From: an uncultured Anaerolineae bacterium
GTDB lineage: Bacteria > Chloroflexota > Anaerolineae > J036 > Brachytrichaceae
DNA length: 64,000 nt
NCBI GenBank assembly: GCA_938028725.1
Contig: CALIMH010000012.1
Span: 62,001 to 126,000, forward strand
Direction: 5' to 3'
The notes below the pieces were generated by a model that saw only the letters and a program-made list of their open reading frames with translations, had not been told where the DNA came from and did no database searches. Positions within the stretch are counted from its first letter, which is position 1. Each line of letters opens with the position of its first letter. Made by a program: the position numbers and the translations under genes. This document shows, in pieces, positions 34,334 through 40,741 of the stretch.

Positions 34334-35041
34334 CTAGCGCGTGCCTGCCTTCAAGACGAATTGCTCAAACGCCTCTGCTGTCCATGGCAGCGCTGGCTTG
34401 AAAAAGTGCTCATAGATAGCCTGCGCGTAAACCCGAATCTCAAACTGCGCGTCCTCGGCCATGCGGAGCTGCAGGAAGTGCATGAGGTTGTGCGCGTCCA
34501 CCTTGGCCACCCAGGTGTAGTACACCGCGAAGCCCGGCAAGAACAGGCGTGCTTGCTCGCGAGCGATCCCGGCCTCCAGCGCGCGGCGATACAGCGCGTA
34601 ACTCTGGGCGTAATGCTGCAAGAGCGCTTCTGTGAACGGCTTGCCTTCCTCAGGTGTCAATTCGCCGAGGCTGGCTTGTTTGTTTGAGGGCGATTGTTTG
34701 CGCCATACCGCAGGTATGTAGAAAGCGTCTTCGTCGAACGGGACGTAGCGACCAGATTGGGCGTTGAAGCTCCAGGTGCGGTGGCGCACCCATTGCCACC
34801 ACGTCACCAGCGGCGCGCGCACGCGGAACTTAAACTCCACTTGCTCAAAGGGGCTGGTGTGACGGTGTTCCATCAAGTAGAACAGCAGCCGCTTGTCCCT
34901 TTCCTCGCCGCGGCTCTCGCCTAGAAATGAAACGCGCGCCGCATTGACAATGGCCAGGTCGTCGCCCATCAAGTCTTGCAGCTCCACCCAACCCTGGTCG
35001 AGCACGGGGATGCGTTTGCCAATGAGTGTCTGCAGTGCCAT
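34334..35041 (-). CDS. thyX: Flavin-dependent thymidylate synthase
   Basis: ThyX makes dTMP from dUMP with methylene-THF, FAD and NADPH. The ThyX motif RHRxxSxNxxSxR is exact: RHRTWSFNAQSGR at residues 86-98. A histidine and arginine-rich substrate region (EHRHTSPFEQVEF) precedes it. The 235-residue length from the ATG at 35041 is normal; the frame extends 14 codons upstream without family match. The start codon is only 5 bases from an in-frame ATG of the divergent SirB1-like gene. Confidence 0.95.
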   Translation of the reverse strand: MALQTLIGKRIPVLDQGWVELQDLMGDDLAIVNAARVSFLGESRGEERDKRLLFYLMEHRHTSPFEQVEFKFRVRAPLVTWWQWVRHRTWSFNAQSGRYVPFDEDAFYIPAVWRKQSPSNKQASLGELTPEEGKPFTEALLQHYAQSYALYRRALEAGIAREQARLFLPGFAVYYTWVAKVDAHNLMHFLQLRMAEDAQFEIRVYAQAIYEHFFKPALPWTAEAFEQFVLKAGTR

Positions 35042-35046
35042 AATAT

Positions 35047-35916
35047 ATGGCCATCCTAACTCAAGAGAGAGGTGCACTCGCATTCAGGATGGACGCACAG
35101 CTAGATGCGTTCGCACGAGAAGTCAACCGGCCTGATGAAGAGATAGACCTTTTGCGGGCTGCCCTGGAGATGGGGCGCTTTGCCTACCCCGACCTGGATA
35201 CCGAGGCGCACATCCACCGATTGACGCGCTTGGCAGATGCTGCTAGCCGTTACCTGCTCGAATCCGACGACATATCCCCGCTGGCTTTGGCGCGCTTTTT
35301 GTTCGAGGTGGTTGGCTTCGCTGGTGATGCCGAGCATTACACCGACCCTCGCAACAGTTTCCTCAACGAAGTGTTGGTGCGGCGGTTGGGCATCCCCATC
35401 TCGCTGTCGGTGGTGTATTTGGAGGTGGCGCGGCGCAGCAATGTCGCGGCGGAGGGGGTGGGGCTGCCGGGCCACTTCATTGTGCGGGTGTATGACCCGA
35501 ACGGCCAAGTGATATACCTTGACCCCTTCCATCGTGGCGCGGTGCTCACTGAGGCAGATTGCCGCGCCCGCGTGCACGCCCTCACCGCTGGCAGGCTGCC
35601 ATTCCACCCCGCTTTCTTGCAGCCTGTGGGAAGGCGCTACATCCTAACCCGCATGCTCAACAACTTGAAGCACTTCTACCTCGCCCGCGGCGATGTAGCC
35701 AGCGCTGCTCAGATTGTCGAGCGCCTGTTGGTGCTCAGCCCTGATGACTTGGAAGTGATGCGCGATCTGGGCGTGTTGTACGCCCAGTTGGGCAAGGTGC
35801 GCGCAGCAATGAGCCTCTTGCAACGCTACGTGGAAGAGCGCCCCGCTGCGCCAGATGTGCCAGCGATCCAAGCGATGCTTAGGGAGTTGGTGCAGCGCGC
35901 TTCGCGCTGGAACTAG
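35047..35916 (+). CDS. SirB1-family protein: transglutaminase-like domain plus TPR
   Basis: This protein of up to 289 residues matches the SirB1/YchA family: a transglutaminase-like domain with DPRNSFLNEVLVRRLGIPISLSVVYLEVARR and GVGLPGHFIVRV, followed by tetratricopeptide-type helices (NLKHFYLARGDVASAAQIVERLL, VMRDLGVLYAQLGKVRAAMSLLQRYV). The family's biochemical role is not settled. Start choice is open between 35047 and the ATG at 35089 (MDAQLDAF); the second leaves room for a promoter and is where homologous sequence starts, so it may be the real one. Confidence 0.85.
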   Translation: MAILTQERGALAFRMDAQLDAFAREVNRPDEEIDLLRAALEMGRFAYPDLDTEAHIHRLTRLADAASRYLLESDDISPLALARFLFEVVGFAGDAEHYTDPRNSFLNEVLVRRLGIPISLSVVYLEVARRSNVAAEGVGLPGHFIVRVYDPNGQVIYLDPFHRGAVLTEADCRARVHALTAGRLPFHPAFLQPVGRRYILTRMLNNLKHFYLARGDVASAAQIVERLLVLSPDDLEVMRDLGVLYAQLGKVRAAMSLLQRYVEERPAAPDVPAIQAMLRELVQRASRWN

Positions 35917-36785
35917 CACTCCAGCTCATCCTCTCCCACGCGCCGCAGGCCTCTGGTGGCTATCCATAGCAGGACGGCTGTGCCTACTGCGCTCAGGCTG
36001 AGGTGGATAGACAAGGCAGACGGCCAAGGTTGTGGCGTTGACGCCACGAAGAGGTTGGTCCAATCGGTTGTGGCGCTGAGCTGAGCCGGCAGCGTGAACG
36101 CCACGGTCATCAGCGGGCTAAAGCCGGCTAGGGTGATCGTGAGCAGTGTTTCTAGCCCCGCGGGCAACATCGGGCGGATCAACGCGAGCGTGATGTTACA
36201 CGAGAGCGGCCACAGGAAAAGCAACGCCGCTCCCACGCCCAGCGCCGTGGCTGTGCCACTGACGCGGCTGTTTAAGCTGATCCAGGCCGCTAGGCTCAGC
36301 GCTGTGAAGAGCAGGATCGCGCTCAGCACGATGCTGCCGAGCGCGACCAGTGCAAGCACCGACGCGCTCCTGAGCAAGAACGCGAGGCTGAACAAGGGGA
36401 GGAGCGAGGCGGCCATGATGCCTATCCAGGTGCATATAGCCAGCCACCGCGCCAGCACGATTTGCGCCGGCGAGAAGGCTGCTAGCCTCAACCAGGCCAG
36501 GGTGGTGCGTGGCTTTGGGCCGGCGTTGGCTGCGCCGAGCGGGGCCGGCGCTAGGCTGCACAGTAGCACTTGGACCACGGCTAGCAGAAACAGGATCGCA
36601 TTCCCCACTTCGCTGTTGCCCACCAATGCGTTTGGATTGCTCCAGTAGCCAATCAAGTACAGCAGCAGCGCAAGTCCACTGGTCGTGCCGATGTAGAGCG
36701 AAACCAGCACGTGTAGGCCTGGTTGACGCACCAGCGCCCGCATCTCGCTGCTAAGCAGCACCCCAAAGCGGCTTGCCCCGCTCAT
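35913..36785 (-). CDS. ABC-2 type membrane protein, putative permease
   Basis: This is a protein of 290 residues with about six transmembrane helices: after a cytosolic start the helices are at about 26-48, 62-84, 108-135, 145-168, 180-205 and 262-280. Its arrangement and place after an ABC ATPase-like gene (3-base gap) fit an ABC-2 exporter permease, though similarity to a named family is weak. The 3' end overlaps the convergent SirB1-like gene by four bases. The cargo is unknown. Confidence 0.68.
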   Translation of the reverse strand: MSGASRFGVLLSSEMRALVRQPGLHVLVSLYIGTTSGLALLLYLIGYWSNPNALVGNSEVGNAILFLLAVVQVLLCSLAPAPLGAANAGPKPRTTLAWLRLAAFSPAQIVLARWLAICTWIGIMAASLLPLFSLAFLLRSASVLALVALGSIVLSAILLFTALSLAAWISLNSRVSGTATALGVGAALLFLWPLSCNITLALIRPMLPAGLETLLTITLAGFSPLMTVAFTLPAQLSATTDWTNLFVASTPQPWPSALSIHLSLSAVGTAVLLWIATRGLRRVGEDELEC

Positions 36786-36788
36786 CGC

Positions 36789-37715
36789 CTATCGCTCCTC
36801 GCCAAATTGAAGCAACTGCACGCTGCTGTGCATCAGCGCGCGCATGAGTTGGGTGGCTTGCAAGTGGTTGCCGTTAAAGTGCACGCGCATCTCTTTGACA
36901 GTGGCCACGCTGGGCGGGATCAAGTCTGAGTTAGGAGCAGGTAACAGCACGACGTCCACCACGCCGGCTTGGGCCATGGCGATGTTGCGCGCAAGCGAAG
37001 GCTCGCCGAGGAAGCGCACCAATAATCGGCGGTGAAAGGAGACGTGCGCCGGCGCTGCTGCGGAGGGGCCTAGCCATTCGACGCGCCCACTCGCCAACAC
37101 CAGCAAGTGTGTGCACACGTCTGCAATCTCTACTGCCCAAGGCCCGCTGAGCAGGATCGCTTTGCCCATGTCAACCAACGACTTGAGCAGCTCGCGCAAC
37201 TCGATGCTGGCGCGCGGGTCAAGCTGTGCGAAGGGATCCTCGAGCACCAGGATGGGCGGGTCATGGGCGAGGGCGCGGGCCATCTCCAAGCGCTGGCGCA
37301 TAGCGGGCGGCAACGCGCTCACTGCGCGTGCAGCGACGTGCCTGAGCTCCATCAGCTCCAGCAGGTTGTGCACAAGTTCGGTGCGCTCCGAAGACGGCAC
37401 GCCATGGCCGGCGGCGAAGAGGCAGAGATACTCGTGACAGGTGAGGTGGGGCACTGCAGGAGGATGCGCAGGGACGTAGCTCACCAGCCGCGTCACCGCA
37501 AGGCCATGCTGCGCCACTGAAAGCCCATTCACACGCACGTCGCCTTCGCGGGGCGTCAACTCGCCGATCAACAGGCGCGTCAGTATGTGGCCGCTGGCCG
37601 GTTGATCGCTCACCACACCGAGTGCCTCGCCGACCGCTACACTGAAGCTGACCTCGTGCAGCACAGCTTGGCCATTGCAAGTGTAGCTTAGCTTTTCCAC
37701 CTCCAGCACGCGCAT
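36789..37715 (-). CDS. ABC transporter ATPase-like protein with degenerate nucleotide-binding motifs
   Basis: The 308 residues follow the layout of an ABC-2 type ATPase: LEVEKLSYTCNGQAVLHEVSFSV at the start, a Q-loop region and helical domain, RQRLEMARALAHDPPILVLEDPFAQLDPRA in the middle, then a C-terminal extension. The motifs are broken: the Walker A region (33-46) reads GVVSDQPASGHILT with no GKS/T, the signature is ALPPAMRQR, the Walker B end is LVLEDP instead of LLLDEP, and the H-loop histidine is replaced (LLSGPWAVEI). The frame is intact, so it is maintained. It is cotranscribed with the ABC-2 permease; perhaps it works as a regulatory or structural partner. Confidence 0.85.
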   Translation of the reverse strand: MRVLEVEKLSYTCNGQAVLHEVSFSVAVGEALGVVSDQPASGHILTRLLIGELTPREGDVRVNGLSVAQHGLAVTRLVSYVPAHPPAVPHLTCHEYLCLFAAGHGVPSSERTELVHNLLELMELRHVAARAVSALPPAMRQRLEMARALAHDPPILVLEDPFAQLDPRASIELRELLKSLVDMGKAILLSGPWAVEIADVCTHLLVLASGRVEWLGPSAAAPAHVSFHRRLLVRFLGEPSLARNIAMAQAGVVDVVLLPAPNSDLIPPSVATVKEMRVHFNGNHLQATQLMRALMHSSVQLLQFGEER

Positions 37716-37819: not shown

Positions 37820-38971
37820 ATGAAGCTGCACGAATACCAATCTAAGCAGATTTTCGCGCGGTTTGGCGTGCCGGTGCCGCGCGGCATATTGGCTGAGAAC
37901 GCGACGGAGGCACGGAATGCCGCGCGAGAGCTTGGCCTGCCGGTGGTGATCAAAGCTCAGGTGCTGGTGGGAGGGCGCGGCAAGGCCGGCGGCGTGAAAG
38001 TGGCTCACACAATGGAGGAGGTGGAGGTGCTGGCCGAACGCATCCTCAGCCTCACCATCAAAGGGCTGCCTGTGCGGCGTGTGTTGATTGACCGGGCGGC
38101 GGACATTCGTGGCGAGCTGTATCTGGGCGTCACCATTGACCGTGCGCGGCGTCGCGCCGTCCTGATGGCCAGCAGCGCCGGCGGTGTGGACATCGAAGAG
38201 GTGGCAGCCACCACGCCCGAGCGGATCGTCAAGGTGCCGGTTGATCCCTTCATTGGTCTGCCGGATTACCTCGCTCGTGATGTGGCAGTGAGCATCGGTT
38301 TGGCGCGCGAGCACTGGCCCAAGTTCATCCACGTCGCGCGCGGCTTGGTGAAAGCGTTTGTGGACAACGACGCCTCGCTTGCTGAGATCAACCCGCTGGC
38401 GCTGGTCGCAACAGATGGCGGCATCGGCCTGATGGCGCTGGACGGCAAAATGGTGATTGACGACAACGCCCTCTTCCGACACCCCGACCTGGCTGTGATG
38501 CGTGATCCCGATGAGGAGAGCGAGGCCGAGCGCAAGGCGCGCAACGCTGATTTGAACTTTGTCTCGCTTGATGGCAACATCGGCTGCCTGGTCAACGGCG
38601 CTGGCCTGGCCATGGCCACGCTGGACATCATCCAGCACTTTGGCGGCAAGCCGGCCAATTTCCTCGACGTGGCCGGCGGCGCACGCGCTGACAAGGTGGC
38701 CACCGCGCTGCGCATTGTGCTCGCCGACCCGAAGGTGAAGGTGGTGATGTTCAACATCTTCGGTGGCATCACCCGCTGCGACGAGGTGGCGCGCGGCATC
38801 GTCCAAGCCATCGAGGAGGTGCGGCCCACTGTGCCGATGGTGGCGCGCATCACCGGCACGAACAAGGCCGAGGGTGACCGCATCCTGGCCAGCGCCAACT
38901 TGATCACGGCCGAAAGCGCCGCAGAGGCTGCCCAAAAAGCAGTGGCGCTGGCCAACGCTGCCGCAGCATGA
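37820..38971 (+). CDS. sucC: Succinyl-CoA ligase [ADP-forming] beta subunit
   Basis: SucC is the nucleotide-binding subunit of succinyl-CoA synthetase in the TCA cycle. The ATP-grasp N-terminus [21 protein letters not shown], the [13 protein letters not shown] loop, the metal site LAEINPLAL and the C-terminal [14 protein letters not shown] and [13 protein letters not shown] are all present in 383 residues. The partner gene sucD does not follow; the stop overlaps the hisG start (ATGA). A family alternative is malate-CoA ligase MtkA, but no mtkB is beside it. Confidence 0.93.
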
Positions 38972-39988
38972 CGCGCACCGATGTTCGTCTGGCGCTGCCC
39001 TCAAAGGGACGCCTACAGCAACCCACGCTCGATTTTCTGGCGCGCTGCGGCTTTGAAGTGCGCCAATCGGTCACACGCAGCTACATGGGCAGCATCCCTG
39101 CTTTGCCGGAAGTGACGGTGCTGTTTCAGCGGCCGCGCGACATCGCCACCAGCGTGGCGGGAGGTGGCGTAGATTTCGGCATCACGGGCTACGACGTGGT
39201 GGCCGAGGCGAACGGTGGCGAGGCCACGTATGTGTTGCACGACGCGCTGGGGTTTGGCAAGTGCCGCGTGGTGATCGCAGTGCCAGAAGCGTGGGAGGAC
39301 GTGCACACCATGCAGGACTTGGCACGCCGGGCAGCTATGATGCCACACCCCCTGCGCGTGGTCACCAAATACCCGCGGCTGACGCAGCACTTCCTGGCCA
39401 AGGCGGGCGTGTCGCCATTCGTGTTGGTGGATGCTGAAGGCTCGCTGGAAGTGGTGCCGGAGATCGGCTACGCCGACATCATCGTGGACATTGTGGAGAC
39501 GGGTGCCACGCTGCAACAAAACCGCTTGCGCATGTTGAGCGATGGCGTGATCTTGCACACGCAGGCCTGCCTGATCGCTAACCGCGAGGCGCTGCGTCGC
39601 CCCAAAGTGTTGCGCAGCGCTATTGAGCTGCTGGAATACATCGAGGCGCATCGGCGCGCGGAGGGCTATTTCATGGTTTGGGCCAACGTGCGGGGCGACT
39701 CGCTGGAGCAAGTGGGGCGCATCATCACCACGCAGACCACGCTCGGCGGCCTGCAAGGCCCTACCATCGCGCCGATCTATCCCAACGCCCACAGCGCCCA
39801 AACTAACCCCCACAGCGGCTGGTTCGCGGTCAACGTCGTGGTGGGGCGGGCGGAACTTACCGAAGCCATTGAGCAACTGCGCGCCATCGGCGGCAGCGGC
39901 GTGGTGGTCACGCCGACAACCTACATTTTTGAGGAGCAGCCCAGCCGCGTGACAGCGTTGCGAGAGCTTGCCAAAACTTGGGCGCGCC

Positions 39989-39999
<11 letters not shown>
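38968..39999 (+). CDS. hisG: ATP phosphoribosyltransferase, long form
   Basis: HisG does the first step of histidine synthesis. The 343 residues include the catalytic core ([50 protein letters not shown] with the PRPP loop) and a C-terminal ACT-like HisG_C domain (about 250-330), so this is the self-contained, histidine-regulated form that does not need HisZ. It is translationally coupled to sucC and overlaps hisF by 11 bases. Confidence 0.94.

Positions 40000-40741
<742 letters not shown>

Follow-up and report, generated by a model that had tools for sequence, protein, structure and literature searches.

A gene for a nucleotide-binding-domain (NBD) homologue of the ABC-2 type, located at positions 36789 to 37715 on the minus strand, has lost the motifs of its nucleotide site and has kept both its open frame and its membrane partner. 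The window in which it lies is the whole 64,000-nucleotide stretch analysed here, from an uncultured bacterium of the Anaerolineae. With moderate confidence, we regard the gene as an old pseudo-ATPase that a diverged ABC-2 pair has retained in a non-motor role. A preliminary description, prepared from the letters of the window, had already proposed a pseudo-ATPase that may have a new role, such as that of a sensor or regulator, and the pseudo-ATPase part of this reading has gained ground: the losses are centred on the nucleotide site, the rest of the protein, its frame and its permease are kept, and the Walker A lysine has also been lost in a genome of the sister genus (G015).

The reading frame is open, as had been described; it starts with ATG and encodes 308 amino acids without a single stop, and its GC3 and codon bias fall within the range of the other genes of the window. 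Its layout is that of an ABC-2 ATPase, as first proposed, and PF00005 (ABC_tran) matches residues 19-163 with 48.9 bits against a cut-off of 25. The protein matches 160 NCBIfam models, the top one being GldA (TIGR03522) with 111 bits, which does not reach the equivalog cut-off of 402.6. The motif losses listed in the preliminary description (Walker A, LSGGQ, the Walker B swap and the H-loop histidine) were borne out by the orthologue alignment, from which the positions of the former motifs were derived by hand. The Walker A pattern GxxGxGK[ST] is gone, and the stretch VSDQPASGHIL (residues 35-45; 37581 to 37613, minus strand) presents VSDQPASGHI where the orthologues have VGPNGAGKTT. The signature (LSGGQ or LSxGM) is equally gone from LPPAMRQRLEM (residues 135-145; 37281 to 37313, minus strand), with LPPAM in place of LSRGM, and the MRQR stretch beside it is retained. 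The former Walker B and D-loop, ILVLEDPFAQLDP (residues 155-167; 37215 to 37253, minus strand), reads VLED in place of LLDE, with the Asp-Glu order swapped to Glu-Asp, and it retains the D-loop LDP with its aspartate. The H-loop column holds a proline and no histidine. The Q-loop position, which had gone unlisted earlier, is an alanine in a variable column that holds glutamine in only 3 of 23 readable relatives. No hidden, shifted P-loop was seen by eye in the protein; the sole other Gly-Lys pair, which reads MGKA here and MGKT among relatives, belongs to the strand that precedes the H-loop and by eye forms no P-loop.

The coupling of this gene to a permease, also claimed at first, is borne out by a probable ABC-2-type membrane protein of 290 amino acids (35913 to 36785, minus strand), which begins 3 bases after the stop of the ATPase gene. 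This permease is very divergent, has lost the SERE part of the coupling motif, and gave no family match in Pfam even at an E-value of 10. It is nonetheless orthologous to permeases that do match: both family permeases scanned (L061 and L069) exceed an ABC2_membrane cut-off. A targeted loss of the coupling motif in the permease was considered and is ruled out, as 4 of 8 conserved residues are kept there versus 17 of 38 elsewhere, a retention like that of other divergent permeases.

Orthologues were searched in all 28 genomes of the family, and a search at the level of the order returned the identical 28. An ATPase orthologue is present at an E-value of 1e-31 or better in 24 of them, the window genome included. 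The four genomes without one are G022 (82% complete), G040 (75%), and the two sister-genus genomes G002 and G009 (both 97%, genus g3), the last two of which also yielded no permease match at E-values up to 1. Because these two genomes lack the gene, the ATPase-permease pair can be dispensable in genus g3, where it is absent from two of three genomes. The preliminary description had proposed a search for homologues with the same losses and for their neighbours; it returned a similar loss in G015 and a permease adjoining the ATPase in all 24 orthologue genomes. Besides the window's own, 22 of these permeases were found by searching with the window permease at E-values up to 1, and that of G004 by clustering of gene calls; the matches in G015 (E 0.03) and G003 (E 0.5) are weak, and their assignment relies on their position next to the ATPase and on their likeness to other permeases.

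Around the pair, a recurrent block comprises a HIT protein and a sugar-epimerase-like protein (both by eye), the ATPase, the permease, a transglutaminase-like protein and ThyX. The transglutaminase-like gene and ThyX each occur in at least 10 of the 20 other family loci that were gene-called, and these counts are lower bounds, as gene calling missed genes in some loci (L071, L072 and L078). The window retains half of the block: next to the ATPase and permease lie a transglutaminase-like/TPR protein (35047 to 35916, plus strand; profile match and locus comparison) and ThyX (34334 to 35083, minus strand; profile matches and locus comparison). The HIT and epimerase neighbours are missing, and in their place positions 37820 to 40741 hold what we take, by eye, to be the succinyl-CoA ligase beta subunit, HisG and HisF. 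Apart from the ATPase and permease, neither half of the block is present on the contig of G015. In locus L062, another ABC protein is encoded about 5 kb away.

The motifs were tabulated for 24 family rows and four class-level outgroup rows, and the table reveals different stages of loss. All four outgroup rows are canonical in Walker A, signature (LSRGM), Walker B and H-loop. Within the family, the H-loop column holds histidine in only 2 of 24 rows and has lost it in 22, with the histidine of G003 standing one column later. The signature serine is lost in 13 of 24 rows, of which 12 carry Thr, a mild change, and one carries Pro, and it persists in 11. At the fourth position of the signature, Gly and Ala occur in 10 rows each, Ser in 3 and Pro in one. 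The Walker B aspartate, on the other hand, is kept in 22 of 24 rows and the Walker A lysine in 21 of 23 readable rows; glutamate and glycine, respectively, replace them only in the window and G015. The P-loop replacements of these two share 2 of 10 residues by eye. Because the two loops differ, the replacement stretch seems free of constraint, and the comparison indicates that it has not turned into a new conserved site.

The age of the loss can be approached from two phylogenies. In the rpoB tree, for which 28 genomes provided 23 usable rows, the window genome is sister to genus g3 (SH-aLRT 99). The ATPase tree likewise places the window and G015 (genus g3) as sisters, with support of 95/93, and of 95/74 when the motif columns are removed; G020, which is cut at a contig end, was excluded from this second tree and from the conservation columns below. 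On the ATPase tree, the Walker A lysine requires one change, and the H-loop and the signature serine three changes each. The shared glycine and glutamate states fit a single loss that predates the split of the window genus from its sister genus. Two separate losses in the window and G015 are possible, as the long branches leave room for them, and these branches, with the drop of the SH-aLRT to 74 without motif columns, make the sister grouping less than certain.

A further question is whether the nucleotide site was lost specifically or whether the whole gene is decaying. With a conservation threshold of at least 90% among 21 other rows, 85 columns qualify, 10 of them catalytic and 75 others. 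The window protein keeps 3 of the 10 catalytic residues versus 55 of the 75 others (Fisher p 0.010). For the nucleotide-site columns, a seven-column subset picked after the motif table had been seen and in which neighbouring columns are not independent, it keeps 0 of 7 versus 58 of the 78 others (Fisher p 1.8e-4). G015 keeps 5 of 10 catalytic and 64 of 75 other residues, and 2 of 7 versus 67 of 78 on the nucleotide-site division (p 0.002). The orthologues G003 and G004 were each scored against a consensus that excluded their own row; both have 9 of 10 catalytic residues in place, alongside 57 of 78 others in G003 and 59 of 83 in G004. Their branches in the ATPase tree (1.39 and 1.66) are comparable to that of the window (1.49). 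Uniform decay of the window ATPase is thus unlikely, because its losses centre on the nucleotide site and orthologues of equal divergence have lost only one of 10 catalytic residues.

The rates and the frames were considered as well. The ratio of ATPase to rpoB path lengths has a median of 5.6 for the window (19 pairs) versus 4.0 for the 139 other pairs (5-95% range 3.1-7.7), and the window ATPase is not strongly accelerated. G004, with a ratio of 7.5, has its Walker A lysine intact nonetheless. In neutral simulations at 0.5 substitutions per site, none of 600 runs left the ATPase frame open and 2 of 600 left the permease frame open; at 0.3 substitutions per site, the counts rose to 14 of 600 and 5 of 600, respectively. 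Measured against G015 and G042, the window ATPase has a dN/dS of 0.33 and 0.50, respectively, with dS near saturation, and since a single genome represents the window genus these values do not describe recent selection. Close pairs within the family give 0.14-0.28, and both the rate ratio and the dN/dS of the window are somewhat higher than those of the family.

The strongest rival explanation, which we consider possible but unlikely, is a slow erosion, in which a dispensable transporter is under weakening constraint throughout the family, the window has reached the final step that precedes loss, and its open frame is a remnant. Several observations agree with it, such as the family-wide disappearance of the H-loop histidine and signature serine, an ATPase whose rate across the family is about 4 times that of rpoB, and the strong divergence of the permease. 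The absence of the pair from G002 and G009, the somewhat raised rate ratio and dN/dS of the window, P-loop replacements that differ between the window and G015, and a window permease that has no Pfam match and whose losses are not centred on the coupling motif, a pattern expected where constraint on the pair is weak overall, likewise count against retention. Against erosion stand losses centred on the nucleotide site and missing from equally diverged orthologues, two frames open on a branch where neutral drift would have produced several stops, and the dN/dS of 0.14-0.28 in close family pairs. Close homologues with intact motifs, which in the preliminary description would have pointed to simple decay, were found in part only: 21 of 23 readable orthologues do keep the Walker A lysine, but most of these are without the H-loop histidine, many are without the signature serine, and the equally diverged rows do not share the targeted loss of the window.

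Alternatively, the pseudo-ATPase could be the degenerate half of a heterodimer, pairing with an intact ABC-2 ATPase that is encoded elsewhere and supplies one working site; this we consider improbable. A candidate partner does exist, as the one other recognisable ABC-2 permease of the genome adjoins an ATPase (C1:48528-49133) whose Walker A and Walker B motifs are intact and whose score exceeds the cut-off of the DrrA subfamily. This ATPase, however, has a permease of its own and lies on a different contig, and in such heterodimers the degenerate NBD usually retains Walker A. The preliminary description had suggested looking for a second ATPase gene, and the outcome is divided: the genome holds this intact one, but neither the window pair nor its counterparts in the 20 further family loci that were gene-called include a second ATPase gene. 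A scan of the contigs of the window genome returned only five distant relatives of the ATPase, with motifs that are canonical by eye. Finally, an assembly error or a misread frame, conceivable for a draft genome of 19 contigs, is hardly credible given the 308 open codons with 39-44% (NBD) and 39-47% (C-terminus) identity to orthologues of genera g6 and g3, the preserved synteny, the recurrence of the Walker A lysine change in a second genome (G015), and an intact Walker A in all 7 ABC proteins examined among the 40 other matches in the genome.

Returning to a retained pseudo-ATPase, the predicted structure was found to be compatible with an ABC fold, although it is no proof of one. The AF2 model has a mean pLDDT of 72.5, with blocks of 78-95 up to residue 210, and its input alignment consisted of five distant relatives with canonical NBDs, which favours the ABC fold. 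Confidence is mostly good over residues 1-219, which resemble ABC domains, the best structural match of the predicted NBD being 4yer_B (Z 30.6, rmsd 1.8 over 225 residues), with LptB and TM0544 among the others. From residue 220, the pLDDT falls below 50, leaving the last 89 residues without a resolved fold. The C-terminal segment (residues 229-308; 36792 to 37031, minus strand; coordinates by hand) is at least as conserved as the NBD in comparison with 8 of 9 genus g6 orthologues, and it may carry the retained function.

Under the retention we favour, the NBD subunit of an ABC-2-type pair would have lost its nucleotide site, most likely before the window genus and its sister genus split. Judging from its residues, the window protein would neither bind nor hydrolyse ATP, and as an NBD-shaped subunit it may still dock on the permease. 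There it could act as a scaffold or stability partner that fixes the permease in one state, forming a membrane complex independent of ATP, and the pair would presumably no longer pump. The family suggests how this state was reached: the H-loop and signature were lost first and the P-loop stayed, which, from the general roles of the H-loop and signature, suggests that intermediates hydrolysed ATP weakly or merely bound it.

The best matches of the window ATPase among solved sequences include ABCA4, NosF and 1vpl. The protein is like the DrrA, GldA, NosF and ABCA-type ABC-2 ATPases in its predicted fold, its length (NosF has 308 amino acids) and a gene order with a single membrane partner. Those ATPases have working nucleotide sites, and, unlike them, the window ATPase is without nucleotide-site residues and its permease is without a Pfam score. 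Degenerate ABC sites are mostly known from pairs in which the other half still has an active site. Heterodimeric exporters with one degenerate site (for example TAP, BmrCD, PatAB and MsRv1273c/72c) resemble the window pair in that catalytic residues of an NBD are lost and the transporter is retained. They differ in having one active site, whereas the window pair has no second NBD gene and its P-loop itself is gone. Among the literature titles surveyed, no bacterial ABC-2 ATPase devoid of any nucleotide site was found. We tentatively put forward the pair as an ABC-2 complex without any nucleotide site, in which an NBD-shaped, ATP-independent scaffold or regulator may be kept in two genera and whose relatives would preserve the steps, with the P-loop lost last. 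If true, a pair whose only NBD gene has no nucleotide site, together with its earlier-stage orthologues, would offer a direct test of whether selection can maintain the ABC fold for some task besides driving transport, and the order in which catalytic parts are released from constraint would be testable.

The nearest outgroup in the ATPase tree is formed by class-level relatives (G031, G025, G038 and G028; loci L027, L029, L030 and L033), which also have an adjoining ABC-2-type permease. Unlike the window ATPase, they have canonical motifs, and they adjoin a large protein, with a weak DUF4350 match in L081, the sole one scanned. A MoxR-type gene is near in three of the four class-level loci L081-L084 and a DUF58-type gene in two (Pfam on members of L081 only). 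The family of the window does not have this cluster of large protein, MoxR and DUF58 around the ATPase-permease pair, and the near neighbours of the window pair are ThyX and the transglutaminase-like protein. In two loci of genus g6, 4-5 kb separate the ATPase from a MoxR-type AAA gene upstream of it (by Pfam for L064, by clustering for L065), perhaps a trace of the cluster of the class-level relatives, or perhaps chance.
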